Below are positions 22,907-42,045 of a stretch of 64,000 bases of DNA, piece after piece. Source of the DNA: Nocardia sp. BSTN01. GTDB taxonomy: Bacteria > Actinomycetota > Actinomycetes > Mycobacteriales > Mycobacteriaceae. The first letter of the stretch is position 1; each line of letters opens with the position of its first letter. The DNA is taken from the NCBI RefSeq assembly GCF_015354405.1, contig NZ_JADKYP010000007.1, positions 124,001-188,000 of the forward strand, written 5' to 3'. The translations under genes and the position numbers were made by a program. The notes under the pieces are model-generated. The model saw only the letters and a list, made by a program, of their open reading frames with translations, was not told the DNA's origin and searched no databases.

Positions 22907-22938
22907 GGTGTACTCCTTTGTCTCCGATGGCACGGGGG

Positions 22939-24192
22939 TCAGTCGACCGTTTCTGTGGTGGGCGCGGCGAGCCGCGCGCCAGGGGTGAAGGTGGCAGGAA
23001 CGCTCAGGAATCCGTTGACCGTTCCGATCGAGTGGTACTTCTGGGCGCGCTCGTAGTCGACGACGAAATCGGGCATACGCGTGAGGACGCCCTCGAGCAT
23101 CGCGCGCAACTCCACCCGAGCGAAGTTCGATCCGAGGCAGCGGTGGTGCCCGACGCCGAATGCCAAGTGGCGGTTGGGGGCTCGATCCAGCTGAACCTCT
23201 TCGGGCGCGTCGAATTCGTCCGGATCGTGGTTGGCGGCGGCCCAGCTGAGCATCACCCGGTCACCTTCGCGCAGACACTGGCCACCGACTTCGACGTCTT
23301 CCCGCACTGTCCGCGCGTTGTTCTGAGTCGGGCTGAAGTAGCGCAGGAATTCCTCGATCGCCGGCTGCAGCCGATCGAAGTCCTCGGCCAGGTAGGCCCG
23401 TTCTTCGGGGTGACGACTCAACCATTCGACGACATCGCCGAACAACGAGGTGGTGGTATCGACCCCACCCGCCACGATCAGGAAGCAGATCTCGGTGATC
23501 ATCTGTTCCGACAGCGGCTCGCCGTCGACCTCACACTGAGTGAGGTAGGTGATGAAGTCGTCGCGGGGCTCACGCCGACGGTCCGACACGTGCTCGTACA
23601 ACCGGCCCGCCAGCAACATCAGATCGGTGATCGCCTGGTTGTGCCGATCGGACCCCTCGGGAGACATGAAGTCGTGGAAAGGCAGAGCGTAGGTTCGCCA
23701 TTCCGACTCCGGGAGTCCGAGCAGCTTCATGGTGAACCGCCCGGGTACCACGGCCCCGAGGTCGTAGATCAGGTCGCACTCGCCCTTCTCGATGATGAGG
23801 TCGAGCTGCTCGTCGACGGCCTCGCGCAACCACGGCAACCACTTCTGCGCCGCACCGGGCGTGAACGACTTCTGAAGCAGGTTGCGGATAACGGTCGCTT
23901 CCGGCGGGTCGAGTTCCAGCGGGATGGCTCGCATCGGCGCCTGCGGGATGGCGATTCCGCCATACCCGTTACCGTCACCGGAGACGTCGTGCTCGGTGGA
24001 GAAGTGGTCGCTGTCGCGCGCCGCAGTGCCGACATCGGCGTGTTTGGTGAGCACCCAGAAACCATCGTGCTCATCGGTCCAGGCGACCGGGCAGCGGGAC
24101 CGAATGCCGTCGAGCGTTTCGATCCAGTTCTCGGCATAGTGGTTGGACTGATGGTCGAAGTCCACAGTGGGACGGGTGTCCGAACTGGTCAT
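22939..24192 (-). CDS. Cytochrome P450
   Basis: 417 residues from ATG 24192 (AGGAAAAGC upstream; ATGA overlap with the synthetase stop). I-helix AGGVDTTTS at 241-249, ExxR at E281-R284, heme loop FGVGHHRCLG with Cys352 as ligand. It is a soluble class I bacterial P450 of the CYP125/142/124-like size range, needing a ferredoxin and reductase; candidates are the [3Fe-4S] ferredoxin at 38,927 and the reductase at 34,943. It is placed between an acyl-CoA synthetase and an alcohol-oxidising SDR, so hydroxylation of an alkyl or terpenoid substrate is likely. Confidence 0.92.
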   Translation of the reverse strand: MTSSDTRPTVDFDHQSNHYAENWIETLDGIRSRCPVAWTDEHDGFWVLTKHADVGTAARDSDHFSTEHDVSGDGNGYGGIAIPQAPMRAIPLELDPPEATVIRNLLQKSFTPGAAQKWLPWLREAVDEQLDLIIEKGECDLIYDLGAVVPGRFTMKLLGLPESEWRTYALPFHDFMSPEGSDRHNQAITDLMLLAGRLYEHVSDRRREPRDDFITYLTQCEVDGEPLSEQMITEICFLIVAGGVDTTTSLFGDVVEWLSRHPEERAYLAEDFDRLQPAIEEFLRYFSPTQNNARTVREDVEVGGQCLREGDRVMLSWAAANHDPDEFDAPEEVQLDRAPNRHLAFGVGHHRCLGSNFARVELRAMLEGVLTRMPDFVVDYERAQKYHSIGTVNGFLSVPATFTPGARLAAPTTETVD

Positions 24193-25865
24193 GCTTTTCC
24201 TGCTTTCACTGGCTGGCGCGGGCTGCCGGCGGGCCGAGTGGGTTCCCAGTCGGGTGCCGCCACCGTCCGGTCCCACGTTCCGGAACCGACACCACGCTCG
24301 CGCAGTTTGAACTTCTGAATCTTGTTGGTGGGCGTCATCGGGAATTCCGACAGCACCTCGACGTAGCGCGGCACGAAGAAGTACGGCGCCTTCGCGTCGA
24401 TGAACTTGCAGAACTCGAGCGGGTCGATCTCCACGCCGTCCTCGACCAGGAGGTAGGTCATCAGCTCCTCCTCGTGCTCGAGTTCGGCGACCTTGACACC
24501 GACGGCCGCGACGTTCACGACGCCCGGGAACTGCCGCGCGATGTGCTCGACCTCGAAGGTGGCGGTGTTACGGCCCTTGTGGCGCAGCGAGTCCTTCTTA
24601 CGGTCGACGAAGAAGACCTCGCCGTCCTCATCGCGGCGACCGAGATCGCCCGAGTGGTGCCAGAAGTTGCGGAACGCCTGGGCGGTTTCCTCCGGCTGGT
24701 TGAAGTAACCCGAGAATACGGAGAAGGGCACCTTCGGCCGGACACAGAACTCGCCCGGCACGCCGACGCCGACCTCCTCGTCGTTCTCATCGAGCAGTTT
24801 GCACTCCACGAGGTCGTCCGACAGCGGAACTCCGCAGGATCCCGGCTTGAGGGTCATGGCCGAGGTCGCCAAAGTGGCGCCCATGATCTCACTCTGGCCG
24901 AATCCGCCCGCCACCAATTCGATGCCGAAGCGCTCCATGAACGCGTCGAGGATCTGGGGCACCATCGGATTCATCACCAGGGTGCGCAGCGGGTTGTCGG
25001 CGTCGTCGGGCCGGTTCGGCTGCTGGAACAGGTAGATGTGCATCGTGCCCAGCGTCATCGTGTGATTGGCGCCGAAATGCCGGATCCGGTCCCAGAAATT
25101 GGTCACCGAGAACCGCTTGTCGATACATGCGGCGTTCGCGGTGATGAGCGCCGGGAAGACATTCATCAGCCAGCCGCCGGAGTTGTACATCGGCATGCAG
25201 TAGTAGAACCGCTCACCGTCGCGCACTCCGCCGCGGAAGACCTCGTTGTGGCGCTGCGGCCACAGCATCCACGCGGCATGCGGCTGCATGACCCCCTTGG
25301 ACGGCCCGGTGGTACCCGAGGTCCAGAGCACCGCGCTGGTGTCTCCGTGATACAGCGTCGGGAACCGCGCCGGTGGCTGATGCTTCGCGAAGGTCGCCAG
25401 GTCGTGCAGTGTCACTCCCGGAATATCGATTCCGTCGATGCCACCGTTCACCACGACGTGTTCCACGGGGATCTCGTCGAGCGCGGCCACTTCATCCACG
25501 AGGTGACGGTCCACGACCAGAATCCGCGAATTGACCGACCGCAGCAGCTCCCGCAGCCATTCACCGCGATATTCGGTCGACAGCGGCGACCAGATACCGC
25601 CGATCCGGTTGATACCGAAGGCCGTGACCGCCAGCGTGGTGGAGTTCTCCATGAACAGCGCCACGGTATCGCCCTCGGACAGACCCAGTTCCGCGTAGGC
25701 ACCGGCATGGCTGTCCGCGAGCGCGTCGACCTCGGCGTAGGTCAGCGAACCGCGGTCGTCGACGAGATATTCACGGTCGCCGAACTGCTGTGCCTGCAGG
25801 CGCAGCACGTTGACCGGGATCCGGTGCTCGACATTGCCGAGCGGATCGATGGTGATGGCGCTCAC
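24189..25865 (-). CDS. Acyl-CoA synthetase (AMP-forming), long
   Basis: 558 residues from GTG 25865, which forms GTGA with the stop of the upstream SDR and has GGGGGG upstream. Motifs: VLWTSGTTGPSKGVM (P-loop), GGFGQSEIMG in place of the usual YGxTE, HHSGDLGRRDEDGEVFFVDR, and the C-terminal lysine in TPTNKIQKFK. The AMP-binding motif FGQSE is typical of a FadD17/FadD19-like subset for steroids and bulky acids. It activates a carboxylate to CoA and is probably in one operon with the P450. Confidence 0.87.
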   Translation of the reverse strand: MSAITIDPLGNVEHRIPVNVLRLQAQQFGDREYLVDDRGSLTYAEVDALADSHAGAYAELGLSEGDTVALFMENSTTLAVTAFGINRIGGIWSPLSTEYRGEWLRELLRSVNSRILVVDRHLVDEVAALDEIPVEHVVVNGGIDGIDIPGVTLHDLATFAKHQPPARFPTLYHGDTSAVLWTSGTTGPSKGVMQPHAAWMLWPQRHNEVFRGGVRDGERFYYCMPMYNSGGWLMNVFPALITANAACIDKRFSVTNFWDRIRHFGANHTMTLGTMHIYLFQQPNRPDDADNPLRTLVMNPMVPQILDAFMERFGIELVAGGFGQSEIMGATLATSAMTLKPGSCGVPLSDDLVECKLLDENDEEVGVGVPGEFCVRPKVPFSVFSGYFNQPEETAQAFRNFWHHSGDLGRRDEDGEVFFVDRKKDSLRHKGRNTATFEVEHIARQFPGVVNVAAVGVKVAELEHEEELMTYLLVEDGVEIDPLEFCKFIDAKAPYFFVPRYVEVLSEFPMTPTNKIQKFKLRERGVGSGTWDRTVAAPDWEPTRPAGSPRQPVKAGKA

Positions 25866-26713
25866 TGGTTGCCCCCCATCGTCCACTGACCGGAAACCGT
25901 CATGTACAGCGACATATCGGTCATCAGGCCCGCGGCAACACCCTTGTCGAGGTGGATGTTGGCGGCGGTCATCATCGACATGTCGTCGGAGGCCAGATGA
26001 GAGATCGCGGCACCGATGCGCTCGGCGGGTTCCTCGAGCGCGCCCTTGAGCTGCGCCTGAGCCTCCAGCTGCTCCGGGGTGGCCGGGGCGCCGGTGACAT
26101 ATTCCAGCACGCCGGCGGTGACCGCGTCGTTGGTGTCACCGGGAACGGCGCCCAGCAGAATGGTGTTGGCGCGCACACCCCACATCAGGTATTCGATCGC
26201 GAGGGTGCGGGTGAACTGCGTGATGGCGGCCTTCGACGAGTTGTAGGCGGCCATCCGGGACAACGGCACCTCGGAGTTCATCGACGAAATGGTGAAGATG
26301 ACGCCGTCGTGCTGGCTCATCATGTAAGGCAGTACGGCCTTGGACGACAGGAAGGTGCCCGTCAAGTTGGTCGTGACGATCTGGTTCCACACGTCGAGTT
26401 CAACCTCGTGCGTGTCGATAATGGCCGGGTTGCCCACAATGCCGGCGTTGCAGACCAGAACGTCGATCCGGCCGTACGCGTCGTTCGCGGCCTCGGCGAA
26501 CCGCTCGCAATCCGCCTCGGACGTCACATCCGACTGGACGAACAGCAGTTCGCCACCCGACTCGCGGACCGACTTCTCGAGTGCCGCGCCTTCTTCCTGG
26601 CGCCGACCGGTCGCGACCACGCGCGCACCCCGGCGCGCGAGCTCCTCAGCGACTCCGCGACCGACACCGGACGTAGCGCCAGTGATGATCACGACCTTAC
26701 CGGCGATGCTCAC
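25862..26713 (-). CDS. SDR-family oxidoreductase
   Basis: 283 residues: VIITGATSGVGRGVAEELARRGARVV, CNAGIVG, TISSMNSEVPLSRMAAYNSSKAA with Ser and YxxxK. The C-terminus is extended by about 50 residues (MSMMTAANIHLDKGVAAGLM). It is first in the operon SDR-synthetase-P450-SDR. The substrate is unknown; sequence around the active site does not match the Hsd4A class seen elsewhere here. Confidence 0.83.
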   Translation of the reverse strand: MSIAGKVVIITGATSGVGRGVAEELARRGARVVATGRRQEEGAALEKSVRESGGELLFVQSDVTSEADCERFAEAANDAYGRIDVLVCNAGIVGNPAIIDTHEVELDVWNQIVTTNLTGTFLSSKAVLPYMMSQHDGVIFTISSMNSEVPLSRMAAYNSSKAAITQFTRTLAIEYLMWGVRANTILLGAVPGDTNDAVTAGVLEYVTGAPATPEQLEAQAQLKGALEEPAERIGAAISHLASDDMSMMTAANIHLDKGVAAGLMTDMSLYMTVSGQWTMGGNQ

Positions 26714-27050
26714 CTAAAACCTCCATGCATGGGTGCCCCGCCGAGGCGGCAGTTCACGGCACTGTGATACAGACAACTATTTATATCTCTTAACTGATTC
26801 ATCTACAAGACCCTCGCTTGCCCGTGGACCATCTCCGAGCGGTCGCCTGATGCACAGGCAGCTGTGGCAGAAACTTGCACTTGAGCAACCATCTCGCCCG
26901 CGAGCGTGGCGTTTCGGCTAGCCTGACCGTCGGACAGCAGCTGTCAGGGTAGTATAGTGCAATTAGTTAAATCAATCACCCAAACCCGGTCGGTAGCCGC
27001 ATCGTGCGGCCTCGAGCCGGCCGGAAGTGTTCTGGGGAGGAGAGCCCCTC
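26714..27050. promoter_or_regulatory. Divergent intergenic region with two AT-rich elements
   Basis: 337 bp between the leftward operon and the rightward CoA-transferase; no credible gene. It holds AACTATTTATATCTCTTAAC near 26775 and, at 26949-26971, an element whose minus strand reads TTTAACTAATTGCACTATACT, a variant of the shared TAACTRATTATACT promoter motif facing the leftward operon. The plus-strand transcript would start near the second element, about 80 bp before the CoA-transferase start. Confidence 0.45.
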
Positions 27051-28286
27051 ATGTCCGATCTGCTCGCGGGAATCCGCGTGCTCGAATCCGCAATGCTCCT
27101 CAACGGCGACACCCTGGGCGGCCACCTGGCCGACCTCGGCGCCGATGTCATCAAAGTCGAAGCACCCGGCCGGGGGGACTATCTGCGGTACATCCTGGGC
27201 CAGGTCGCGCCGGGACGCAGCCCCGCGCACCTGCAGGCCAACCGGGGTAAGCGAAGCGTCACCCTCGACCTGCGCACACCCGAAGGACTGGAAGCCTTCT
27301 GGAAACTGCACCAGACCGCCGACGTCTTCATCGACGGCAATCGCGCCGGCGCGCTGGATGCGCTGGGAGTCGGCTACGACGCGCAACAGACGCGCAAACC
27401 GGACATCGTCTACTGCCAGTACACCGGATACGGCAGTGAAGGCCCGTACGCCGCCATCGCGACACACGGCCGGATGATGGACGCACTCGCAGCAGCCTTC
27501 CCGCGTGAGATGGGGCCCGACGGCTTCATGGCTCCGGCACCCAGCCGCGACCCGATGGCCGGCATGGCGTCGGGTGGAGAGGGCACCGCGGCCGGCGCGA
27601 TTCACGCCGCCTTCCATGTCGCGGCGGCACTCGTCCAACGCGAACGGACCGGACAGGGCGCGCATATCGATGTGGCGGGCTTCGACGGCGTCGTCGCCCA
27701 AGCGTGGACCACGGCCACCTACGCCCTCAACCAGCACCGGCTCACCGACACCAGCACCCTGCCCGCGATGCAGGACGGCGAAATGAGCGGCGCTCGGTAC
27801 CAGTTCTACGAAACCGGCGATGGCCAGGTCGTACTCTTCTGCTGTATCGAGCCGAAGTTCTGGCGGAACTTCTGCCGCGCTATCGGCCGCGACGACCTCG
27901 TGGACACCATCGCGGACGGCCACGTGGACTTCGGCAACGACGGCGACGAGTTGCGCCACGAACTGCAGAAGATCTTCCACGAACGGACGCTGACGGAGTG
28001 GATGGCGCTCGCCGCAGAACACGATATGGCGCTCGGACCGGCGTATCGCTCGATCACCGAGGCCGCCGCGGATCCGCACGTATCAGGCCGCGGAGTGATT
28101 CACACGCAAGAGTTCCCGGAGATCGGCGAATTCACCTATATCGGTGAGGCCGGCCGGGTCGCGGGCCAGCCCTACACCGTTCAGCGCCCGGCACCGGATC
28201 TCGGCCAGCACACCCGGGAAATCCTCGCAGAGCTCGGCTATTCCGACGGCGAGGTGGACCACCTCGCCGGTACGAGCAACAGCTGA
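27051..28286 (+). CDS. Family III CoA-transferase (CaiB/BaiF)
   Basis: 411 residues from ATG 27051 (GGGGAGGAG upstream). N-terminus IRVLESAMLLNGDTLGGHLADLGADVIKVEAP, with a family III CoA-binding fold; the likely catalytic Asp lies in the middle domain near SRDPMAGMASGGEG. The C-terminus GRGVIHTQEFPEIGEFTYIG is typical. Monocistronic, ended by a strong hairpin. It is a candidate for activating an acid that feeds the pathway encoded downstream on the other strand. Confidence 0.85.
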   Translation: MSDLLAGIRVLESAMLLNGDTLGGHLADLGADVIKVEAPGRGDYLRYILGQVAPGRSPAHLQANRGKRSVTLDLRTPEGLEAFWKLHQTADVFIDGNRAGALDALGVGYDAQQTRKPDIVYCQYTGYGSEGPYAAIATHGRMMDALAAAFPREMGPDGFMAPAPSRDPMAGMASGGEGTAAGAIHAAFHVAAALVQRERTGQGAHIDVAGFDGVVAQAWTTATYALNQHRLTDTSTLPAMQDGEMSGARYQFYETGDGQVVLFCCIEPKFWRNFCRAIGRDDLVDTIADGHVDFGNDGDELRHELQKIFHERTLTEWMALAAEHDMALGPAYRSITEAAADPHVSGRGVIHTQEFPEIGEFTYIGEAGRVAGQPYTVQRPAPDLGQHTREILAELGYSDGEVDHLAGTSNS

Positions 28287-28311
28287 TCGTCCGGCGTCCG
28301 CACCTGCACAA

Positions 28312-28346
28312 AGCGCCGCGGTCCTGACAACCAGGACCGCGGCGCT
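28312..28346. terminator. Bidirectional terminator hairpin, 15-bp stem
   Basis: Perfect arms AGCGCCGCGGTCCTG/CAGGACCGCGGCGCT with loop ACAAC, between convergent genes. Confidence 0.8.
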
Positions 28347-28381
28347 CATGTTGTGCCGGGCGAAATCTCTACCGCAACCGA

Positions 28382-29971
28382 TCAGGCACTCGTCAGCTGT
28401 CGCGCGATGACCTTCAGCGCCAGAACCTCGTCGGCGCCCTCGAAGATCGACAGCACCCGGGCGTCCACGAAAAGTCGTGAGATCGCGAACTCTTCCGCAT
28501 AGCCGTAGCCGCCGTGCAATTGCTGGGCTTCCCGCGTCACCCATTCGGCGGCCCGGCATGCCAGCTGCTTGACCTGGGCCGCCTCCAACTGCCCGCCATG
28601 ATCGGTGACCGCGCGAGCAGCCGAATACGCGAAGGTCCGACATGCCGCGATCAGCGCCGCCATCCTGGCGATCTTGGCGCGGGTCAGCTGGTATTCGGCC
28701 AAGGGGCGACCGAATACCGCACGCTGCTGGGTGTATTCGATCGCGTGCTCGAGTGCGCTCTGCATAACTCCGACCGCACGGGCGGCGGTCTGCAGACGAG
28801 CATTGGCAAATGCCTGCATCTGGAGGTAGAAGCCACGGCCGATGCCCTCGTGTGTGCCGATCAGATCGGCCATCGGCACCCGCCAATGATCGATATTCAC
28901 CTCGAAGGAGTGCATACCCCGATAGCCCAGCGTCGCGATGGCGCGTCCTTCGATCGATCCGCCGCCCTCCTGGGTGATTCGCCAGCTGTGCCCGTCGAAC
29001 GAGGGCTTCTCGACGACGAACAGCGACAACCCGCGATGGCCCGCCGACCGATCCGGATCGGTGCGGGCGAGCACGAGCAGGTAATTCGCCTTACCGGCGA
29101 AGGTGCACCAGGTTTTCACACCCGTCAGCACCCAGTCGTCACCGTCGCGGACCGCGCTGGTGCCGACCGCGGCGACGTCGGAGCCACGATCCGGTTCGGT
29201 GACCGCGACACCGCAGAGCTTCTCGCCGGTCGCGATGCGCGGAAGCCAGCGCTGCTTCTGCTCCTCGGTTCCACCCCGCACGATGGCGGTGCCGATGATC
29301 TCCGGCCGGGTGATCAGCGAGCCGGCCACACCGAGCGAGCCACGGGACAACTCCTCGGTCACGAGCACCATGTTGAGCAGCTCGTCCGCACCGCCCTCGG
29401 CGAATCCACCGAACTCGCTCGGAATCGAGAGACCGAAGCAGCCCATCTCGGACAATCCGGTGATGATGCTCTCCGGGATGTCCGCGTCCTCCCGGTGGAC
29501 CCGTTCCGCCACGGGCGAGACTCGTTCCTCGGCGAACTTGCGGAAGGTCCGGCGCACCATGTCCTGATCGGGAGGAAGCTCGCGCGAGCCCGCTTCCATT
29601 GTCTCCGTTACTCTTTCGGCCACACGCTCCAGCAGGCGCGGATCCCGCCCGGCAGCGATCTCGGAACGAACGCCGTCGAGCATCGACGCCTCGACGCCCC
29701 ATTCCGCCTCGCGTCCGGCCAGCCGCCCGGTCAGGTCCGCCGCCGCATCCGCGGCGAAAACGAGTGCCAGATCGGCATCGTGCGAATCGCGGACGCCGTG
29801 CGCGACCAGCTCCGCGGCCGCCGCGACCGACGACGAGATCGACGCCAGGTCGTAGGCCACGACCTGTTCGCCGTCCGAGCGCGCCGACTGCGCCGCGGCC
29901 TTGTCGACGAGATCGCGCAGCGCCGCCACGATGGCGCGGGTCTGGGTCACACTCACGGGTTCAGCATTCAT
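28382..29971 (-). CDS. mcd: (2S)-Methylsuccinyl-CoA dehydrogenase-like acyl-CoA dehydrogenase
   Basis: 529 residues: an extra helical N-terminal segment of about 138 residues, then a full acyl-CoA dehydrogenase domain. That long extension and the motifs EMGCFGLSIPSEFGGF, VAVTEPDRGSDVAAVGT, GRGFYLQMQAFANARLQTAARAVGVMQ and SIFEGADEVLALKVI match methylsuccinyl-CoA dehydrogenase (Mcd) of the ethylmalonyl-CoA pathway, as I recall that family. The reaction is methylsuccinyl-CoA to mesaconyl-C1-CoA. It overlaps the hydratase gene by ATGA and is last in a four-gene operon whose other members complete the route to pyruvate and acetyl-CoA. A larger 2-alkylsuccinyl-CoA could also be the substrate. Confidence 0.78.
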   Translation of the reverse strand: MNAEPVSVTQTRAIVAALRDLVDKAAAQSARSDGEQVVAYDLASISSSVAAAAELVAHGVRDSHDADLALVFAADAAADLTGRLAGREAEWGVEASMLDGVRSEIAAGRDPRLLERVAERVTETMEAGSRELPPDQDMVRRTFRKFAEERVSPVAERVHREDADIPESIITGLSEMGCFGLSIPSEFGGFAEGGADELLNMVLVTEELSRGSLGVAGSLITRPEIIGTAIVRGGTEEQKQRWLPRIATGEKLCGVAVTEPDRGSDVAAVGTSAVRDGDDWVLTGVKTWCTFAGKANYLLVLARTDPDRSAGHRGLSLFVVEKPSFDGHSWRITQEGGGSIEGRAIATLGYRGMHSFEVNIDHWRVPMADLIGTHEGIGRGFYLQMQAFANARLQTAARAVGVMQSALEHAIEYTQQRAVFGRPLAEYQLTRAKIARMAALIAACRTFAYSAARAVTDHGGQLEAAQVKQLACRAAEWVTREAQQLHGGYGYAEEFAISRLFVDARVLSIFEGADEVLALKVIARQLTSA

Positions 29972-30906
29972 AGCGAACGACTTCTTTCGGTTGATGCGGG
30001 AGCAAGCTCCACCTCGAGACTCACACACGGATCGGATTCACCACGTCCGAACAACCCCACGGTGAGGAGATCGCCCTCGGCGTGGGTTCGGCGCAACATC
30101 GCCGGTTCGGCACAGAACAACGGCTTGAGATTTCGGTGCCGAAGGGTGGCGATTCGTCCGGAAATACCTTGGAGCCGAAGCGTTTCGGCCAGTGCCATGG
30201 TCATCAGCGGGCCGTGCACCACCAGGCCGGGATAGCCCTCCACATGTGTTGCGTAGGGCCAGTCGTAGTGGATGCGGTGCGCATTGGAGGTGGCGGCCGA
30301 AAATCTCATCAACAGGGTCGGATCGGTGGCGAACTCCCAGGTCCAGTCGTCGACCCGGTGCAGCGGTGGTCCGATCGGCAGCAGTTCCGCGGCGGGCTGC
30401 ACGGCCGGCCGCGACGATGACGCCCCGGCAGCTCGGTAGATGAGGTTCTGGCGTTCGGCGACAGCCAGTCGACCCGCAGCGCCGAAAATGCGCGTCGACA
30501 CGGTCACTACGACCAATGTGCCTGTGCGGCCTTTCTTTTCGACTACCGAGTCGACCACGGATTCGCGGCGGATCGTCTCGCCGACCGTCAGCGGCGCATG
30601 CAGTACCACCTCGCCACCCGCGAACATCCGTCGCGGCAGATCGATCGGCGGCAGGAACCCCCCTCGAACCGGATGTCCATCGGCGGCGATACGTCCCGAT
30701 GCGGTCCAGTCGGACAGCGCCGCCCAGTGCCACATCGGGGGCAACGGGTCGCCCGGCGCCGGCGTCGCCAGGCCATCGTCGAACAGCGCGGCCACCGCCC
30801 GCACCGCCGCCGGATCCACCACCTCTTCCGTCGTCGCGACCTGCGATGTCCACTCGTCCGGCGATACCGCGGGACCGGCGGAATTGCGTCCGTCGCCTGT
30901 ACTCAT
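29968..30906 (-). CDS. meh: Mesaconyl-C4-CoA hydratase-like (double hotdog, COG3777 type)
   Basis: 312 residues from ATG 30906, overlapping the lyase stop. The N-terminal half has MWHWAALSDWT and GGFLPPIDLPRRMFAGG; the C-terminal half has RFSAATSNAHRIHYDWPYA and YPGLVVHGPL. These are the signature blocks of the HTD2/mesaconyl-C4-CoA hydratase family (Meh of the 3-hydroxypropionate bicycle, related itaconyl-CoA hydratases). Expected reaction: mesaconyl-C4-CoA to (S)-citramalyl-CoA. Itaconyl-CoA hydration is the main alternative, but the presence of Mct- and Mcd-like neighbours favours mesaconyl-C4-CoA. Confidence 0.78.
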   Translation of the reverse strand: MSTGDGRNSAGPAVSPDEWTSQVATTEEVVDPAAVRAVAALFDDGLATPAPGDPLPPMWHWAALSDWTASGRIAADGHPVRGGFLPPIDLPRRMFAGGEVVLHAPLTVGETIRRESVVDSVVEKKGRTGTLVVVTVSTRIFGAAGRLAVAERQNLIYRAAGASSSRPAVQPAAELLPIGPPLHRVDDWTWEFATDPTLLMRFSAATSNAHRIHYDWPYATHVEGYPGLVVHGPLMTMALAETLRLQGISGRIATLRHRNLKPLFCAEPAMLRRTHAEGDLLTVGLFGRGESDPCVSLEVELAPASTERSRSL

Positions 30907-31730
30907 TCGCTCCGCTCCTCGACAGTTTCGAGTATCCGACGCGCCCGCTCGATCACCGGCTTGTCGACCATCCGTCCCTCGACCACGACGACAGCACCGC
31001 TGGTCGACGCCTCGACCACCGATCGCGCCCACCGGATATCGGCGTCCGAGGGCCGCAGGGCTTGCGCCACGGTGGCCACCTGCCGCGGGTGGATGCAGAG
31101 TTTGCCTCCGAATCCCAGCCGCCTGGCATGCGCCACATCGGTTCGCAGCCGGTCCGGGTCCGTGATGTCCCCCGTCACCCCGTCGACCGGTGCGGCCAGC
31201 TGCCCGACCGCCGAAGCCAGGACCAGCGCACTGCGGCACGCGAGCAGAGCGAGGGTGTCCTCGGGCGATATCCCGAGTTCGGCCGCCAGGTCGAAACTTC
31301 CGAAGGCCAGCCGGCGTACGCCCGGGGCCGTCGCGATGCGCGACGCATTCGTCACACCCGCCGCCGTTTCCACGAGCGCGATGACCGCCGATCCTGCGGA
31401 TAACCCCGCCGCGACACCGGCCAAGACCTCGGTATCTTCCGCTTTGGGCACCATCACGGCCACGTCGAGACCACGGACCATCTCGAGGTCGTCGTCGTAC
31501 CACGCGGTGCCGTGGGCGTTGATGCGGACGGCACAGGGGTGTCCGGCGGCGATCCAGTCGGCGGCCGCGGCGCGGGCGGCCGGCTTGCGGTCCGGCGCGA
31601 CCGCATCCTCGAGATCGATGACCACCAGGCCGGGATCGGCGGCCTGCGCCTTCTCGAATCGCTCCGGGCGGTCGCCGGGTACGAAGAGGAACGTGCCGGC
31701 TCGCTCGACGGATCGAGCGATCGAGCTCAT
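30903..31730 (-). CDS. CitE-like citramalyl-CoA lyase (HpcH/HpaI family)
   Basis: 275 residues from ATG 31730 (overlaps the Mct stop as ATGA). TIM-barrel lyase of the CitE/Mcl family: GTFLFVPGDRPERFEKA at the N-terminus, DLEDAV, metal ligands in ALVETAAGV (Glu) and FGSFDLAAELG (Asp), and GKLCIHPRQV. The family cleaves 3-hydroxyacyl-CoA such as citramalyl-CoA, malyl-CoA or methylmalyl-CoA. Given the neighbouring hydratase and isomerase, citramalyl-CoA to acetyl-CoA plus pyruvate is the best prediction. The protein is of the short, CitE-like length, not the longer Mcl form. Confidence 0.8.
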   Translation of the reverse strand: MSSIARSVERAGTFLFVPGDRPERFEKAQAADPGLVVIDLEDAVAPDRKPAARAAAADWIAAGHPCAVRINAHGTAWYDDDLEMVRGLDVAVMVPKAEDTEVLAGVAAGLSAGSAVIALVETAAGVTNASRIATAPGVRRLAFGSFDLAAELGISPEDTLALLACRSALVLASAVGQLAAPVDGVTGDITDPDRLRTDVAHARRLGFGGKLCIHPRQVATVAQALRPSDADIRWARSVVEASTSGAVVVVEGRMVDKPVIERARRILETVEERSE

Positions 31731-32995
31731 CGGGCGCCTCGCGACGCGGCCGGGGTGCCGATCACTCCGGCTTCCAGCAATTCGCTGAGCCGGGCGTCGG
31801 ACACCTTCAGCAGGTCCCCGAATACCTCTTCCGTATGTTCTCCGACGGCCGGCGCGGGACTCGCCCCGCTGCGCTCGCCACCGAAGGCCAGCGGCGATCC
31901 CGGTGCCCAGTACGAGCCCACCCGTGGCTGTTCGATCTTCGTCAGCAGGGGGTTTTCCCGCAGCAACTGCGCGTCGTCCGCGACCAGTTCGGCGAATGTC
32001 CGATACCACGACCACAGTAGCCGGCTACCCGTCAGCAGGCCGTCGACTTCGGGCGCGGTACGCCCGGCCATCCAGGCGGCGATGACGCCGGCCAGCGCTT
32101 CTCGGTGGCGGAAACGATCCGCTTCCAGCGTGAAGTCCGCGTCGAAGGCCTGTTCCAACGCCGCGAAGGCGGTCTCCAAACCGGTAATTTCGACCAGTTC
32201 CCGCCAATGCCGGGCGGTCAGCACCACCACGACCAAGCGCTGTCCGTCCGACGTGGTGAAATCGCGCCCGAACGTACCGAAGATGTGATTGCCGAGGCGC
32301 TGGCGGGGCTTGTCGTCGAGCTGCGCCTCGGCCAGATAGCCGAGATTGCCCGCCATGGCCAGTGCCACATCTTCCAGCGCCACACTGAGGCGACTCGCCT
32401 CTCCAGTGCGTGCGCGGTGCCGTTCGGCTGCCAGGAGCCCGATGGTCAAGAGCATGCCCGCGGTGATGTCCCAGGCGGGAAGTACGTGGTTGACCGGCCC
32501 GCGAGTGTTCTCCGGCCCGGTCACCATGGGGAATCCGGTCGCGGCCTGAACCGTGTAGTCGACGGCCGCGCTGCCGTCGTGCCGCCCGGCCAGCACCGCG
32601 TAGATGAGGTCCGGCCGCCTCGACCGGAGGTTCTCGAACGACAGCTCCCGGTACCGTTCCGAGTTGGTGATCACCACACCCGCGTCGACGATCAGGTCGG
32701 CGACCAGCTCCCGGCCCGCTGCGGACGACATATCGACTTCCACCGCGCGCTTGCCTTGGTTGAGGCCGTTCCAGTACAAGCTCGCACCGCTGTCCGCGAG
32801 TGGCCAGCGCGATCGGTCGACAGCGCCGCCCATCGGTTCCACCCGGATCACGTCGGCGCCCAGCTGGGCCAGGTTCAGTCCACACAGGGGTGTCGCTACG
32901 TAGGTGGACAACTCGACGACACGCAGGCCCGCCAAGGGCAGTGAGCGACCTCGCTCTCGACCGGCGGCCTCGGCGTCGGCACCGGGGTCAACCAT
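31727..32995 (-). CDS. mct: 2-Methylfumaryl-CoA isomerase-like (mesaconyl-CoA C1-C4 transferase)
   Basis: 422 residues from ATG 32995 (GGGAGG upstream). A family III CoA-transferase, but with the distinctive blocks of Mct from the 3-hydroxypropionate bicycle: ADVIRVEPMGGAVDRSRWPL, LYWNGLNQGKRAVEVDM, VDYTVQAATGFPMVTGP and NHVLPAWDITAGMLL, where Asp176 is the likely catalytic residue. Mct moves CoA within mesaconyl-CoA from C1 to C4. First gene of the operon mct-ccl-meh-mcd, each pair overlapping by 4 nt. It is divergent from a GntR/FCD regulator gene. Confidence 0.8.
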   Translation of the reverse strand: MVDPGADAEAAGRERGRSLPLAGLRVVELSTYVATPLCGLNLAQLGADVIRVEPMGGAVDRSRWPLADSGASLYWNGLNQGKRAVEVDMSSAAGRELVADLIVDAGVVITNSERYRELSFENLRSRRPDLIYAVLAGRHDGSAAVDYTVQAATGFPMVTGPENTRGPVNHVLPAWDITAGMLLTIGLLAAERHRARTGEASRLSVALEDVALAMAGNLGYLAEAQLDDKPRQRLGNHIFGTFGRDFTTSDGQRLVVVVLTARHWRELVEITGLETAFAALEQAFDADFTLEADRFRHREALAGVIAAWMAGRTAPEVDGLLTGSRLLWSWYRTFAELVADDAQLLRENPLLTKIEQPRVGSYWAPGSPLAFGGERSGASPAPAVGEHTEEVFGDLLKVSDARLSELLEAGVIGTPAASRGAR

Positions 32996-33006
32996 CAAAC
33001 CTCCCT

Positions 33007-33135
33007 AGAATTAGTAAGATAATAACATTCAATGACGTACCGTACTGGTCACGAGACCTACGCCACTACATGCAGCTTCGAGCCACCTTCGAGCCGCTCT
33101 AATAGTTAGAATAGTTTTCTAAATTAACTTCTTAA
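33007..33135. promoter_or_regulatory. Divergent AT-rich promoter/operator of mct operon and gntR
   Basis: AT-rich blocks at 33007-33035 (CTAGAATTAGTAAGATAATA) and 33098-33135. The latter contains the direct repeat AATAGTT-AG-AATAGTT (33101-33116) followed by TTCTAAATTAACTTCTTAAG. It is the likely binding region for the adjacent GntR protein, overlapping the gntR promoter. Confidence 0.5.
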
Positions 33136-33146
33136 GTGAGGCACCC

Positions 33147-33944
33147 GTGACATCGGAACCCCATGGCACCTCGCGCCACACCGTGGGCAGGGCCTCCACC
33201 GTCGGACACCGGATACGGGTGCCCAAGATGGCCGAACTCATCGCGAGCGACCTGCGGCGTCAGATCGTGCAAGCCGAGTTGCACGAGGGCGGCCTCCTTC
33301 CGCCCGAGGCAAACCTGATGAATCAGTATCAGGTGTCGCGCCCGACGCTGCGCGAAGCGTTTCGAATCCTGGAATCCGAATCGCTGATATCGGTCCGCCG
33401 AGGCGCCCGGGGCGGCGCCCGCGTCCAGTTGCCGACCAACGCGGTGGCGGCGCGGTACGCGGCCACGATCCTGCAGTACCACGGGACCACCCTCGAGGAC
33501 GTGTACGAAGCCCGCTTGGTGGTCGAACCCCCCTGCGTGGCGCTGTTGTGCGAAACGCGCACCCCGGAAACCCTGCGGCGCCTGCGGCAAGCACTCGCCG
33601 AACACGATGCGGCGACGGCGGAACCGGCTCGCTCGGTCCGCACGCACATCGCCTTTCATTCGTTGCTGATCGAGTTGACCGGAAATCAGACCCTTCGCCT
33701 GCTGATGGAACTGCTCGAACAGATCATCGATATGGCCAATGTGTCGCAGGTCGAGTCCACGGCCGGGTCGCCCGCTCACGAGCGGGCCAGCCGCAAGGGA
33801 CTGGCCGCCCATCACCGGATAGTCGAGTTCATCGAGAACCGCAATCCCGAGGAAGCCGAGCGGCTCTGGCGCAAACACCTCAGCGAAGCGCGTGACTATC
33901 TGGTCCGAGCCGATGTGCGAACGGTGCTCGACCTCATGGGCTGA
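33147..33944 (+). CDS. GntR-family regulator with FCD ligand domain
   Basis: 265 residues from GTG 33147 (GAGG upstream). Winged helix at about 20-85: LRRQIVQAELHEGGLLPPEANLMNQYQVSRPTLREAFRILE in segments, then LISVRRGARGGARV. The rest is an all-helical FCD domain with His/Asp metal-site positions (IAFHSLLIELTGN; HHRIVEFIENRN). FCD regulators usually bind small organic acids or acyl-CoA. It is divergent from the mct operon, so it is the likely controller, sensing an intermediate such as methylsuccinate or mesaconate (inference). Confidence 0.87.
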   Translation: MTSEPHGTSRHTVGRASTVGHRIRVPKMAELIASDLRRQIVQAELHEGGLLPPEANLMNQYQVSRPTLREAFRILESESLISVRRGARGGARVQLPTNAVAARYAATILQYHGTTLEDVYEARLVVEPPCVALLCETRTPETLRRLRQALAEHDAATAEPARSVRTHIAFHSLLIELTGNQTLRLLMELLEQIIDMANVSQVESTAGSPAHERASRKGLAAHHRIVEFIENRNPEEAERLWRKHLSEARDYLVRADVRTVLDLMG

Positions 33945-33964
33945 CGAGCCGGAGCCGTTGTCGC

Positions 33965-33997
33965 CCGTTGTCCAGGGTGAACGCTCACGGACAACGG
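33965..33997. terminator. Bidirectional terminator hairpin
   Basis: Arms CCGTTGTCC/GGACAACGG, perfect 9 bp, between gntR and the convergent NmrA-like gene. Confidence 0.6.
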
Positions 33998-34004
33998 CGC
34001 GCAT

Positions 34005-34919
34005 TCAGTCCCGCGGCCGGGCAGTCGCCGCCCGCACCTCGTCGGCGTGCGCTGTCGCCCATCGCTCGAAGGTGCTCAGCTCCAGACCGTACGCAGCCGC
34101 GTGCTCCGGGCGGGCCGCATAACCGACGCTGTTGAGCCAGACGTGCGTCGACGACCACGATGCGGCCCCGAGCTTGGCGTCGACTTCGGCAGCGGACACA
34201 CAGGACGCGGAGACCGGGCGGCCGGTAACCCGCGTGATGGTCTCGGCGATTTCCGGGAACGTGAGCAGATCGCCACCGAGCTCGAGCTCGACGCGCGCGA
34301 ACCGCCGCGGGTCGGTGATCGCCGCGACGACTGCCGCGCCGATATCCGCGGCCGACACCAGCGCGACGGCGGTCTCGGGAGCGACGGCGACCGGGAGCTC
34401 GCCATGGGCGAGGAACGGAAACAGCCACGCAGCCTTGGGTGCCATGAAGTTGTCCATCATGAAGGCCGGCTTCAGGATGGTATAGACCGGGAACCCCGCA
34501 TCTCGGACCATCGCCTCGACGCTTTCCTTGTTGTCCCAATACCGGCTCAACTCGACGCCGAGCGTTACCTCCGGATGCGCCGCTCGCCAGCCGGTGGCCG
34601 AGACCGAGGTGTGGACCATGTGTGCGACCCCGGCCTTGTGTGCCGCGTCGACAAGGTTGCGACCGTGCCGCTGCTCGGACTTTCCCGCCGCCTGCACCGA
34701 AAACACAGCGGTACAACCGGAACACGCGGCGTCGAGCGCGATCGGATCATCGAGGTCGCCGACGACCAGCGCGATTCCTTCCACGGCCAGCGCACGGGCA
34801 GGCGGCGAATCCGGATCACGAACCAGCGCCAGCACCTCGGCCCCCGTGCGGTGGAGTGCCCGGGCTGCGGCGCCGCCTTGCGAACCGGTCGCCCCGGTAA
34901 CGAGAACACGGCCAGTCAT
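34005..34919 (-). CDS. NmrA-like NAD(P)-binding protein
   Basis: 304 residues. N-terminal Rossmann motif VLVTGATGSQGGAAARAL, then VVGDLDD and a typical NmrA/isoflavone-reductase layout (HTSVSATG, FPVYTILKPAFMMDNFM). The Tyr-xxx-Lys of classical SDRs is not present in the usual place, so it may be a redox sensor or an atypical reductase. It lies 23 nt after the ferredoxin reductase gene in the same direction. Confidence 0.78.
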   Translation of the reverse strand: MTGRVLVTGATGSQGGAAARALHRTGAEVLALVRDPDSPPARALAVEGIALVVGDLDDPIALDAACSGCTAVFSVQAAGKSEQRHGRNLVDAAHKAGVAHMVHTSVSATGWRAAHPEVTLGVELSRYWDNKESVEAMVRDAGFPVYTILKPAFMMDNFMAPKAAWLFPFLAHGELPVAVAPETAVALVSAADIGAAVVAAITDPRRFARVELELGGDLLTFPEIAETITRVTGRPVSASCVSAAEVDAKLGAASWSSTHVWLNSVGYAARPEHAAAYGLELSTFERWATAHADEVRAATARPRD

Positions 34920-34942
34920 ATGGTTCCTCTCCGATCGATCGT

Positions 34943-36112
34943 CTAGATCTCGTCGATTCCGGCGGCGCGTTCGATCAGCGATCTCGCGCCGATCACCTTG
35001 GCCGGCATCCCACCACCGACGACGCCCGAAATACGGCCGGATCGGGCGTACACGGCCATGAACCGGCGGCCGTCGTCGTGCACGATCCGGACATCGTCGT
35101 CGGGCCGGAAGTCTCCCAGCGCTTGCAGTTTGACTCCGTGCTGATCACTCCAGAAGTACGCGAGCCCCCGCTGAGACGACGGAGGCTGCCCCAGCAGATC
35201 GCCCGCGGCGATCACTGCCTGCTCGGTCACGGGAGTCCAATGCTCGCGACGGACGGCGCGCCCGTGCGCCTGGTCATACCATGCCGCCACGTCCCCGACC
35301 GCCCAGACGTGCGGATCGCTCGTCCTCCCCCGCTCGTCGCACACGATGCCGTCGGCCAGTTCGAGACCGGACCCACTCAGCCAGGCGACTGCCGGAACGG
35401 AACCGATCGCGCTGACCACGAGGTCGGCTTCGATCTCGGTCCCGTCGTTTAGCCGAACCGTCTTCACCCGCGCGCCACCGTCGAGGCCGGCCACGCCCAC
35501 ACCGCAACGCAGGTCGACACCCGCGTCCAGATGCAACCTGCCGACAAGTGCGCCCACGGTCTGTCCGAGAGCGGCGCACAATGGCGTCGGCTGAGGCTCC
35601 ACGATCGTCACCTCGACGCCCAGCCCCACTGCTGTGGCGGCGATCTCGCAACCGATGAAACCTGCTCCGACAACGACCATTCGACGGCCGGCGCCGAGTT
35701 CGGCACGAAGTGCCGCGGCGTCGTCGAGCGTGCGGAGCACGTGCGTGCCGGCGAATTTCTCGCTGCCGGGCAGCGACCGCGGCACCAAGCCCGTGGCGAC
35801 CACCAGCCGGTCGTAGCCGAGATCGGAATCGCCGAGGACGAGCCGGCGCCCGGCGAGGTCCAGCCCGGTAGCCTGCGTTGCGGTGCGGAACTCGAGGTTG
35901 TGCGCCTCGGCGACACCGTCGCCGCACAGCGACACGTTGTCGCGATCACCGCGCAGGTACTCCTTGGACAACGGGGGCCTGTCGTACGGCAGATGCGGCT
36001 CGGCTCCCACGACGACCAACCTCCCGGTATAGCCTGCGGATCGCAGCGCTTCGGCAGTTCTGATCCCGCCGAGGCCGGCTCCGACGACGACAACAGGGTT
36101 CTTTTCGCTCAC
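34943..36112 (-). CDS. NAD(P)H-dependent ferredoxin/rubredoxin reductase
   Basis: 389 residues from GTG 36112 (GGAGG 8 nt upstream; a longer ATG start at 36148 has no ribosome-binding site). FAD site VVVVGAGLGGIRTAEALR, NAD site MVVVGAGFIGCEIAATAVGLG, and the second FAD motif WAVGDVAAW. YDRPPLSKEYL is characteristic of putidaredoxin/rhodocoxin reductase-type enzymes that serve P450 and Rieske systems. It is divergent from the aldehyde dehydrogenase-racemase-ferredoxin operon. It probably reduces the [3Fe-4S] ferredoxin at 38,927 for the P450 at 22,939. Confidence 0.88.
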   Translation of the reverse strand: MSEKNPVVVVGAGLGGIRTAEALRSAGYTGRLVVVGAEPHLPYDRPPLSKEYLRGDRDNVSLCGDGVAEAHNLEFRTATQATGLDLAGRRLVLGDSDLGYDRLVVATGLVPRSLPGSEKFAGTHVLRTLDDAAALRAELGAGRRMVVVGAGFIGCEIAATAVGLGVEVTIVEPQPTPLCAALGQTVGALVGRLHLDAGVDLRCGVGVAGLDGGARVKTVRLNDGTEIEADLVVSAIGSVPAVAWLSGSGLELADGIVCDERGRTSDPHVWAVGDVAAWYDQAHGRAVRREHWTPVTEQAVIAAGDLLGQPPSSQRGLAYFWSDQHGVKLQALGDFRPDDDVRIVHDDGRRFMAVYARSGRISGVVGGGMPAKVIGARSLIERAAGIDEI

Positions 36113-36149
36113 CGCGGAAGCCTCCACTCGGGTCTGTACGTACGCCAAT

Positions 36150-36181
36150 TCAGATAATATAGTTCATTTAGTTAGCTATAT
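36150..36181. promoter_or_regulatory. AT-rich divergent promoter element
   Basis: Minus strand reads TAGCTAACTAAATGAACTATATTATC, a variant of the shared TAACTRATTATACT element facing the reductase gene. The plus strand continues into AGTTAGCTATATGTGAAGGAG, just before the aldehyde dehydrogenase start. Confidence 0.4.
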
Positions 36182-36196
36182 GTGAAGGAGCGTGTC

Positions 36197-37666
36197 ATGG
36201 CCATCGCCGATGCCGCGATCGAGCAGCTGCCTCCGCGGGCACTGCTGATCGGCGACCAGGAAATCGTCGACACCAGCGGGGGTGAGTACCAGCACGTCTA
36301 CGCCGCGACCGGAAAGCCCAGCGCCACCGTGCCGCTGGCCGGCCGGAAAGAGGTCGACGAGGCAGTGGCGGCCGCTCGGGCCGCCCTGCCCGGATGGAAG
36401 GCGACACCCGCCGACCAGCGACGCAACCTGCTGCTGCGGATGGCCGACCTGGTGGAGGCCAACGCCGAACGCCTCACCGCGGTCAACATCGTGGACACCT
36501 CCACCCCCATGCTCGTCTCCGCGGCCCAGCTGTCGATGACCGTCGACCTGCTCCGCTACAACGCGGGGTGGGCCGACAAGGTCGGTGGTGAGGTGCACAG
36601 CACCTGGCCCGTGCCCGCGATCGACTACAGCCTCGACGAACCGTACGGCGTCGTCGGCATCATCATCCCGTGGAACGGCCCGATCACCTCGATCGGCCAG
36701 ATTCTCGGGCCCGCGCTCGCGGCCGGAAACTGCGTCGTGTTCAAGCCCTCCGAGCTCGCGCCGTTCGGCGCCCTGTTGATGGGACGGCTCTTCGCCGAGG
36801 CCGGCTTCCCTCCGGGCGTGGTCAATGTCGTGCCCGGTGGCCCCGACGCCGGTGACGCCATCGTGCGCCATGCCGGCATCGACAAGGTTCACTTCACCGG
36901 TGGCGGAGCTACCGCGCGGCACATCCTCGACGCGACGCGGGACACCCTGAAGCCCGTCGGCTTCGAACTGGGCGGCAAGTCGGCGATGCTCGTCTTCGAC
37001 GATGCCAACATCGACGCCGCTGTCGGCGCGGCGGTCGCGGCCGTCAGCATCAATCTCTCCGGACAGGCATGCATCACCGGCAGCCGTATTCTCGTCCAGC
37101 GCAGCATCTACGACGACTTCGTGGAGCGAACCGCACAGGCCGCGGGGCAGGTTCCGGTCGGGGATCCGACGGACCCCACCGTGACCATGGGCCCGGTCAA
37201 CAACGCCGGGCACTGCGCCCGCATCCTGAACACCATCCGCACCGCGGTCGATGAGAAGCATGGTCGTCTCGTCGCCGGCGGCGAACGCCTGGGCGGCGAA
37301 CTCGCCGACGGCTTCTACATCGCGCCGACCGTCTTCGCCGACGTCGACAACGGATCCTCACTGGCCCAGCAGGAAGTATTCGGGCCGGTCCAGACGATCA
37401 TCCCCTTCGACACCGAGAAGGAAGCGATCGCCATCGCCAACGGCACCAACTACGGCCTCGCCGCCTACATCCACACCCAGGAAGTGGGCCGCGTTCACCG
37501 CGTCGCGGCCGCTCTGGAGGCCGGCAACGTCTGGGTGAACGGCGGGTTCGGAATCCCCGCGTCGGTCCCGTTCGGCGGTGTGAAGCAGAGCGGCTACGGC
37601 CGCCTCGGCGGAATCGCCGGCATCCGCGAGTTCAGCCGGCCGAAGAATATCTGGATCGGCTTGTGA
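36197..37666 (+). CDS. Aldehyde dehydrogenase (NAD(P)-dependent)
   Basis: 489 residues from ATG 36197 (AAGGAG 6 nt upstream). Typical ALDH superfamily: IIPWNGPITSIGQILGPALA, catalytic Glu257 in FELGGKSA and nucleophile Cys292 in SGQACITGSR; C-terminal VNGGFGIPASVPFGGVKQSG. It oxidises an aldehyde to the acid. The stop overlaps the start of the racemase gene. In context it would finish the oxidation of an alkyl group begun by a P450 and SDR before CoA activation. Confidence 0.9.
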   Translation: MAIADAAIEQLPPRALLIGDQEIVDTSGGEYQHVYAATGKPSATVPLAGRKEVDEAVAAARAALPGWKATPADQRRNLLLRMADLVEANAERLTAVNIVDTSTPMLVSAAQLSMTVDLLRYNAGWADKVGGEVHSTWPVPAIDYSLDEPYGVVGIIIPWNGPITSIGQILGPALAAGNCVVFKPSELAPFGALLMGRLFAEAGFPPGVVNVVPGGPDAGDAIVRHAGIDKVHFTGGGATARHILDATRDTLKPVGFELGGKSAMLVFDDANIDAAVGAAVAAVSINLSGQACITGSRILVQRSIYDDFVERTAQAAGQVPVGDPTDPTVTMGPVNNAGHCARILNTIRTAVDEKHGRLVAGGERLGGELADGFYIAPTVFADVDNGSSLAQQEVFGPVQTIIPFDTEKEAIAIANGTNYGLAAYIHTQEVGRVHRVAAALEAGNVWVNGGFGIPASVPFGGVKQSGYGRLGGIAGIREFSRPKNIWIGL

Positions 37667-38949: not shown

Positions 38950-39127
38950 CCGCTGCCAGGGACATACCCTGTGCGCTATGAAGGCACCGGAGGTCTTTCA
39001 GCTCGGCGACGAAGACGGCCACTCGTCGGCCCCCGAGCCGCACGTGCCGGAACATCTGCAGGATGCGGTGCGAGCGGCCGCCGCAACGTGCCCCGAACTG
39101 GCCATCTCGGTCGACGAGGACGACTGA
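38927..39127 (+). CDS. [3Fe-4S] ferredoxin, P450-type
   Basis: 66 residues from ATG 38927 (AGAGGAGAGC upstream). Cys pattern DRCQGHTLC (Cx5C) and the distal ATCPELAI, the three-ligand set of the small ferredoxins that feed actinobacterial P450s. Acidic (pI low), soluble. Third gene of the aldehyde dehydrogenase-racemase-ferredoxin operon; probable electron donor for the P450 at 22,939, though that gene is 15 kb away. Confidence 0.9.
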   Translation: MRVHVKADRCQGHTLCAMKAPEVFQLGDEDGHSSAPEPHVPEHLQDAVRAAAATCPELAISVDEDD

Positions 39128-39144
39128 CCGCTAAGCCGGTCCCG

Positions 39145-39190
39145 AACAGTGAATGCCTCCCCACCGACCGGTGGGGAGGCATTCACTGTT
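39145..39190. terminator. Bidirectional terminator hairpin, 21-bp stem
   Basis: The arm from 39145 to 39165 pairs perfectly with 39170-39190 around loop GACC, giving an unusually long stem between convergent operons. Confidence 0.85.
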
Positions 39191-39206
39191 ACGGATGTGC
39201 CCCCGT

Positions 39207-40310: not shown

Positions 40311-40314
40311 CGTG

Positions 40315-41076: not shown

Positions 41077-41084
41077 GCCTCACA

Positions 41085-42035: not shown

Positions 42036-42045
42036 GGCCCTATTC

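Follow-up and report, generated by a model that had tools for sequence, protein, structure and literature searches.

A four-gene operon on the minus strand at 28382-32995 of a 64,000-nucleotide stretch of Nocardia sp. BSTN01 (contig NZ_JADKYP010000007.1, positions 124,001 to 188,000; hereafter the window) is, on balance, probably the end of a catabolic pathway leading from methylsuccinyl-C1-CoA to acetyl-CoA and pyruvate via a (2S)-methylsuccinyl-CoA dehydrogenase (Mcd), a mesaconyl-CoA C1:C4 transferase (Mct), a hydratase and a lyase. The gene order is Mct-like, CitE-like, Meh/Ich-like, Mcd-like, where Meh denotes mesaconyl-C4-CoA hydratase and Ich itaconyl-CoA hydratase, and the junctions are three ATGA overlaps of 4 nucleotides (nt), located at 31727-31730, 30903-30906, and 29968-29971, which bears out the overlapping genes described in a first-pass annotation made from the sequence alone. 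The Mct-like transferase P0004 (31727-32995, 422 amino acids; ATG at 32995 with a GGGAGG box ahead) is followed by the CitE-like C-C lyase P0003 (30903-31730, 275 amino acids; HpcH_HpaI domain), proposed to be an (S)-citramalyl-CoA lyase (Ccl), the Meh/Ich-like hydratase P0002 (29968-30906, 312 amino acids; FAS1-type dehydratase region, PF13452), and the Mcd-like dehydrogenase P0001 (28382-29971, 529 amino acids; N-terminal extension), proposed to act on (2S)-methylsuccinyl-C1-CoA.

In the proposed pathway, P0001 would oxidize (2S)-methylsuccinyl-C1-CoA to mesaconyl-C1-CoA and pass the electrons to an electron transfer flavoprotein (ETF), P0004 would shift the CoA intramolecularly, yielding mesaconyl-C4-CoA, P0002 would add water to form (S)-citramalyl-CoA, and P0003 would cleave this to acetyl-CoA and pyruvate. 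The reaction order Mcd, Mct, Meh, lyase had been put forward earlier and is supported, as are the four family assignments. PDB matches, residues, and trees also support the earlier suggestion that a dehydrogenase of the ethylmalonyl-CoA type is joined here to an Mct, Meh, and lyase of the 3-hydroxypropionate bicycle type. As judged from sequence, the homology of the four proteins is far beyond chance, and the question lies in the substrate. Gene layout, families, conserved residues, the absence of Ccr over cut-off, the recurrence of the gene set, and the thiolase linkage were obtained directly; what each enzyme acts on, which way the reactions run, what supplies the first substrate, and how the genes are controlled we infer.

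The dehydrogenase is the firmest family call of the four. When PDB sequences were searched with P0001, the best matches were 8ciw, named "(2S)-methylsuccinyl-CoA dehydrogenase" (473 bits), and 6es9 (318 bits), with the next acyl-CoA dehydrogenase (ACAD) at 249. The source of 8ciw is presumably Pseudomonas migulae. The title of 6es9 is just "Acyl-CoA dehydrogenase," and we take it to be the P. denitrificans Mcd (PdMCD) because the residue numbers fit: all 15 PdMCD residues looked up from PMC5798300 occur in 6es9 with the same letter and numbering. P0001 keeps ten PdMCD residues (S248, R252, W318, T320, Y375, R376, T418, R421, F534, and E535), and the substrate arginines R252, R376, and R421 and the catalytic E535 correspond to R222, R351, R398, and E511 in P0001. 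Its N-terminal extension of about 127 residues before the core is shorter than the published one of about 170 and aligns with 8ciw from residue 32. Of 81 ACAD rows, 39 carry eight of the kept positions in full, and every one of these is of Mcd type; none of the 42 remaining rows does, among them 8 rows for paralogs at 7 loci of the own genome (which gives 77 P0001 matches in all).

Phylogeny, which had been named as a possible refutation, places P0004 inside the Mct-like clade and P0001 inside the Mcd clade. In a 63-row dehydrogenase tree, which samples 12 of the 29 phylum-mate Mcds and omits one short row, P0001 is nested in a 22-row Mcd clade (99/99) with a Nonomuraea turkmeniaca protein (locus L133) as its sister (100/100) and phylum-mate Mcds adjacent. 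When the best 9 or 3 candidates from each genome were scored, Mcd at E<=1e-120 was confined to the own genome, both among the 151 genomes examined for the genus and among the 394 for the class, and the gene therefore looks recently acquired.

For the transferase, the PDB search returned 8apq, "2-methylfumaryl-CoA isomerase," at 376 bits and 7xkg at 370, followed by a drop to 100, and P0004 is 46.8% identical to Chloroflexus aurantiacus Mct over 402 positions. It retains the catalytic D165, the substrate residues R47 and Y136, and R314. The first three are described in PMC9813914 and R314 in PMC9196870. In a 42-row tree, P0004 falls in a single clade of 39 Mct-like rows (100/100) that excludes P. 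aeruginosa-type Ict and a formyl-CoA transferase (Frc); R47, Y136, and D165 are present in all 39, and the full set is not found in Ict or Frc. With 392.9 bits against TIGR04253, P0004 stays below the cut-off of 725 and is hence filed as Mct-like. The cut-off is narrow, since Mcd-linked Mcts elsewhere (L096, L098, L100, and L123; 397-554 bits) also fall short. On residues and tree position P0004 can be called Mct-like, but it is not demonstrably Mct.

The sole PDB matches of P0002 were 8huc and 8khg, the second of them named itaconyl-CoA hydratase, at about 190 bits; both are nearly P. aeruginosa-type Ich, with which P0002 shares the motif HRIHYDWPYA...GYPGLVVHGPL. In the own genome, P0002 matched itself alone. 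P0003 matched 9nzb and 8khl, "acyl-CoA lyase beta chain," at 159 bits, ahead of CitE entries (133) and malyl-CoA lyase (82), and 9nzb and 8khl match the P. aeruginosa-type lyase of L127. It groups with the L101 and L102 lyases (97/96) in a tree that is only partly resolved, and its two paralogs in the own genome are weaker (110 and 58 bits). Against the NF038242 RipC model, P0003 scores 158.9 bits, below the cut-off of 375; this model seems to cover another lyase type, because the P. aeruginosa lyase of L127 itself found no family at E<=1e-60. The hidden Markov model assignment called for in the first-pass annotation recovered the HpcH_HpaI, PF13452, and GntR/FCD domains but left P0004 and P0003 below NCBI equivalog cut-offs, and none of the four operon proteins reached an NCBIfam equivalog cut-off.

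A possible source of the pathway's substrate is suggested by a thiolase gene on the same contig (C174, 120002-121222), 31 kb from the operon and just beyond the window. Its product scores 677 bits as NF004853 (cut-off 551), is 66% identical to the thiolase of a Sinorhizobium mexicanum locus (L123), and is the best match in the own genome to the thiolase of L101 (67%, 581 bits; next own-genome match, 239). It is likely an ortholog of the thiolase found near many Mct-like genes. Within the fetched stretches, a thiolase at least 60% identical to it occurs in 26 of the best 80 Mct-like loci of named genomes, 6 of 20 loci from the order, and 2 of 14 plasmid loci (some without an Mct), compared with 0 of 20 Mcd-only loci. 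On the plus strand of the window, an ACAD (15586-16743) with 57-59% identity to the ACADs that come first in the Mct operons of L102 and L130 is proposed to carry out an upstream beta-oxidation step.

The available text of PMC6449761, citing Marin 2010, describes thiolysis of 4-methyl-3-ketoadipyl-CoA to acetyl-CoA and methylsuccinyl-CoA. From the structure of the compound, the CoA in methylsuccinyl-CoA formed in this way would adjoin the methyl group. If an Mcd-type enzyme makes the C1-ester, Mct is needed before a C4 hydratase, and the presence of both points to C1-ester entry. Such entry would be easier to explain by thiolytic cleavage of a 4-methyl-3-oxo diacyl-CoA than by activating methylsuccinate as the free acid. 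Because thiolysis leaves the CoA beside the methyl branch, the C1-ester would most likely derive from an intermediate of the 4-methyl-3-oxoadipyl-CoA type produced by the catabolic island around the operon. The thiolase-Mct linkage, the own thiolase 31 kb away, the ACAD at 15586-16743, and the position of the CoA lead us to favor, with moderate confidence, a thiolytic supply of methylsuccinyl-C1-CoA over growth on free methylsuccinate. MmlI, searched for in the own genome as a sign of a 4-methylcatechol source, gave no match, but no control genome gave one either, so this negative carries no weight.

A further arrangement was seen around related transferases. In 21 of the 80 loci (L130-L209; for example, L160 6778-9197), mostly from Mycobacterium, a NF004853-like thiolase gene directly precedes the Mct-like gene, often followed by a short ACAD with the partial Mcd signature HWYKVRGE and with no Meh or Ccl nearby. 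These loci may represent an uncharacterized dicarboxylyl-CoA pathway.

The gene set recurs on other replicons. On plasmid pEmeITTGR7c of S. mexicanum (L123), Mcd, Mct, Meh, and Ccl are contiguous after a thiolase and are 44%, 39%, 40%, and 49% identical to the respective operon proteins, the Mcd (555 amino acids) having the full signature. The order over L123 3021-13667 is thiolase, 2-hydroxyacid dehydrogenase, Mcd, Mct, Meh, Ccl, two ETF-like proteins, and a LeuC/LeuD-like pair, with the ETF-like and LeuD-like assignments made by eye. A Paraburkholderia sp. D15 plasmid (L096) holds all four enzymes more spread out, within about 9 kb. The order there, over about 10 kb, is Meh and Ccl, then an annotated ETF beta and FAD-binding protein on the opposite strand, followed by Mcd and Mct and lastly a gene with the annotation acetyl-CoA hydrolase/transferase. 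Mcd-Mct pairs occur on the IncP plasmid pAKD34 (L097), in Variovorax SRS16 (L098), and, 2 kb apart, in Azospirillum TSH58 (L100); on conjugative pAKD34 (L097 7771-17989) the pair is flanked by two annotated ISPps1-family transposase genes. The Nonomuraea locus L133 reads Mct-ACAD-Meh-Mcd and has no lyase match over 70 bits within 16 kb.

By count, the complete four-enzyme set is rare and Mct-like genes are common. Among plasmid records, 17 match P0001, 24 match P0004, and 11 match both (8 of the 11 from Azospirillum); Mct is missing from the other six Mcd-bearing records, five from Paracoccus and one from Sphingobium. Mct-like genes at E<=1e-50 were found in 86 of 397 genomes of the order, and the best 80 Mct-like loci in named genomes include, at the thresholds used, a Meh/Ich homologue in 8, a Ccl homologue in 1, and an Mcd-type gene in 1. 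On Sphingobium plasmid pTomTYG74a (L099 4790-11284), an Mcd gene of the 8ciw clade lies beside an annotated beta-methylmalyl-CoA dehydratase and a CitE-like aldolase, a set that suggests a propionyl-CoA plus glyoxylate exit instead.

Several observations weigh against the proposed pathway. The PdMCD residues A285, F287, K379, E380, and F515 are changed in P0001. The first two, the methyl-pocket pair, are also changed in 8ciw, being V/V in P0001 and I/I in 8ciw; an A282V variant of RsMCD remains active according to the available text of PMC5798300. The four-gene operon contains no ETF gene. The thiolase-positive named loci come mostly from related mycobacteria, so they are not independent, and 23 of the 26 are without a Meh homologue. 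Mct and Meh homologues occur together at five plasmid loci, of which only two (L096 and L123) have an Mcd-type gene. P0004 lacks R75, F101, and R104 (S, S, and Y), which are described as corking the tunnel, and the constricting L43 (V), and it lies in an actinobacterial subclade outside that of the Chloroflexi Mcts. The latter group with the Mcd-linked plasmid Mcts of L096-L098 (100/98), all three of which keep L43 and R104 and two of which keep F101; R75 and R314 are not conserved in them. The Mcts of L100 and L123 keep no cork residue nor L43. It could be speculated from the missing cork residues, some of which L096-L098 do keep, together with the score below the TIGR04253 cut-off and the mycobacterial homologues without Meh or Ccl nearby, that P0004 is an inter-molecular CoA-transferase activating a free dicarboxylic acid and not an isomerase. 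We regard this as distinctly unlikely: the Mcd-linked Mcts likewise fall under the cut-off, and the triad R47, Y136, and D165 runs through the whole Mct-like clade. The hydratase label is less secure. The earlier designation as Meh stands as far as Ich kinship and the shared motif go, but P0002 falls in an actinobacterial subclade (100/100; 9 distinct proteins, 12 rows counting alternative starts) apart from P. aeruginosa-type Ich, in a tree without Chloroflexus Meh. Four of the nine members lie in operons with a reductase and a thiolase, assigned from sequences and similarity: L101 (Mct-Ccl-reductase-Meh-thiolase), L102 (ACAD-Ccl-ACAD-reductase-Meh-thiolase-Mct), L130 (ACAD-Mct-ACAD-reductase-Meh-thiolase), and L136 (Mct-reductase-Meh-thiolase). 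The extended operons of L102 (7278-14354) and L101 (2551-7533) combine Ccl, a reductase, a Meh-like hydratase, a thiolase, and an Mct-like gene, to which L102 adds two ACADs. In a setting of this kind citramalyl-CoA, being a tertiary alcohol, could not undergo oxidation. The operons with a reductase and a thiolase are evidence against labeling every member of the subclade strictly as a mesaconyl-C4-CoA hydratase. The operon might then process larger methyl-branched or alkyl dicarboxylyl-CoA substrates, with P0002 as a general beta-oxidation enoyl-CoA hydratase and the CitE-like protein cleaving a homologue of citramalyl-CoA; related Mct loci with a different dehydrogenase fit this idea (19 of the 42 rows not of Mcd type show HWYKVRGE or HWYRVRGE). 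It is nonetheless improbable, more so than an inter-molecular P0004, as P0001 carries the residues with which an Mcd binds a short diacid and the operon itself is without reductase or thiolase.

Two further alternatives concern where methylsuccinyl-CoA comes from. Free methylsuccinate or mesaconate could be the growth substrate, activated at C1 by a CoA-transferase and then taken through the same four steps. A tentative candidate is the neighboring family III CoA-transferase P0006 (27051-28286, plus strand; open reading frame listed from GTG 27027, ATG 27051), which in the PDB comes closest to an enzyme acting on dicarboxylates, succinate--hydroxymethylglutarate CoA-transferase (9br6, 146 bits), and which could activate a dicarboxylate. 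The haloarchaeal succinyl-CoA:mesaconate transferase forms only the C1-ester and accepts methylsuccinate, according to the available text of PMC5592240, and the acetyl-CoA hydrolase/transferase adjoining Mct in L096 would suit the same role. P0006 is, however, convergent with the operon and outside it, scores 138.9 against a cut-off of 700 with the succinyl-CoA:mesaconate transferase model. No transporter was recognized among 20 scanned of about 55 window proteins, though one may lie among the rest. A free-acid substrate is considered unlikely. The operon could also be a glyoxylate-free exit of the ethylmalonyl-CoA pathway, serving anaplerosis from acetyl-CoA, as P0001 is an Mcd of the type found in that pathway. 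This is very improbable and was rejected: in the own genome, which is 99.65% complete, the Ccr model found nothing over cut-off (best 76 bits versus 378.6), and the ethylmalonyl-CoA pathway therefore does not feed the operon. Ccr over cut-off was present in Nonomuraea and in 18 of 19 phylum-mates tested, picked from 52 that bear Mcd, the sole miss being an 88% complete genome. Mct at E<=1e-50 was found in none of 10 Mcd-bearing phylum-mates tested and was present in Nonomuraea; in the surroundings of phylum-mate Mcds (20 stretches, each at most 17 kb), neither Mct nor Meh was seen, and a lyase homologue was seen in 6.

Comparison with known systems places the proposed line from methylsuccinyl-C1-CoA among partial counterparts. 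A pseudomonad methylsuccinate route to acetyl-CoA and pyruvate is already published; in the available text of PMC12290011, its cluster ich-mcd-mmgE-ict-ccl (reference copy L127) has a related hydratase and lyase, but its dehydrogenase forms mesaconyl-C4-CoA, it works on the C4-ester, and it uses Ict and an MmgE/PrpD isomerase with no Mct. The same text calls methylsuccinyl-C1-CoA a dead end for C. necator. The L127 dehydrogenase has 386 amino acids, no extension, and 26.7% identity to P0001. A C4-type cluster was rejected for the operon, as its dehydrogenase is not of the PA0879 type and P0004 is not of the Ict type; no MmgE/PrpD domain was found in the four operon proteins, the part of the genome searched for it. 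L127 itself (6905-14633) lies on an 847-kb conjugative P. aeruginosa plasmid and has an itaconate/methylsuccinate-type gene layout with a TRAP transporter. The ethylmalonyl-CoA-pathway Mcd (6es9) and 8ciw share with P0001 the dehydrogenase family, N-terminal extension, three arginines, and FAD/ETF chemistry, but that pathway sends mesaconyl-C1-CoA to propionyl-CoA and glyoxylate, whereas here there is no Ccr over cut-off and Mct-, Meh-, and Ccl-like genes accompany the Mcd. The 3-hydroxypropionate bicycle of Chloroflexus and Roseiflexus runs from mesaconyl-C1-CoA through mesaconyl-C4-CoA and (S)-citramalyl-CoA to acetyl-CoA and pyruvate (PMC9813914, available portion), as proposed here, with its mesaconyl-C1-CoA coming from beta-methylmalyl-CoA in CO2 fixation and the operon's from a dehydrogenase. 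The 4-methylmuconolactone (mml) pathway resembles the proposed supply, yielding methylsuccinyl-CoA and acetyl-CoA by thiolysis (PMC6449761, available text).

Around the operon, the gene for the GntR and FCD regulator P0005 (33147-33944, plus strand) is divergent and 151 nt from the Mct-like start. The layout agrees with the earlier claim that the operon has its own regulator, and P0005 probably controls it. A perfect inverted repeat, TTAGAA-N5-TTCTAA (33106-33122), in the divergent intergenic region is a candidate operator only, as the pattern was picked after being seen and the shuffle control used whole-window composition for a stretch that is AT-rich. The flanks (22064-26713 and 34005-43985) form a catabolic island encoding a P450, an AMP-binding ligase, short-chain dehydrogenases/reductases, a ferredoxin-reductase-like protein, an aldehyde dehydrogenase, a second family III CoA-transferase, a KshA-type Rieske oxygenase, and an amidohydrolase. 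The G+C content ranges from 63 to 71% (1-kb windows, 22-40 kb), with no step at the operon. No promoters or terminators above chance were found in 27000-34000, and no tRNA in the 64-kb window.

No description of a natural Mcd-Mct-Meh-Ccl cluster was recognized in the literature searched, a search outside which most subscription papers lie. Related steps have reportedly been combined in vitro in the synthetic cycle HOPAC. We tentatively propose, as something that may well prove otherwise, that Mcd, Mct, Meh, and Ccl, accompanied in some hosts by ETF and a thiolase dedicated to them, form a natural, horizontally moving module that would finish the beta-oxidation of methyl-branched dicarboxylates in Actinomycetota and Proteobacteria from independently recruited Mcd and Mct lineages, with Mct rescuing an otherwise dead-end thiolytic C1-ester to acetyl-CoA and pyruvate. 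Thiolytic routes should yield methylsuccinyl-C1-CoA, and a natural Mcd-Mct-Meh-Ccl line would explain its use and would give Mct a role beyond autotrophic CO2 fixation.

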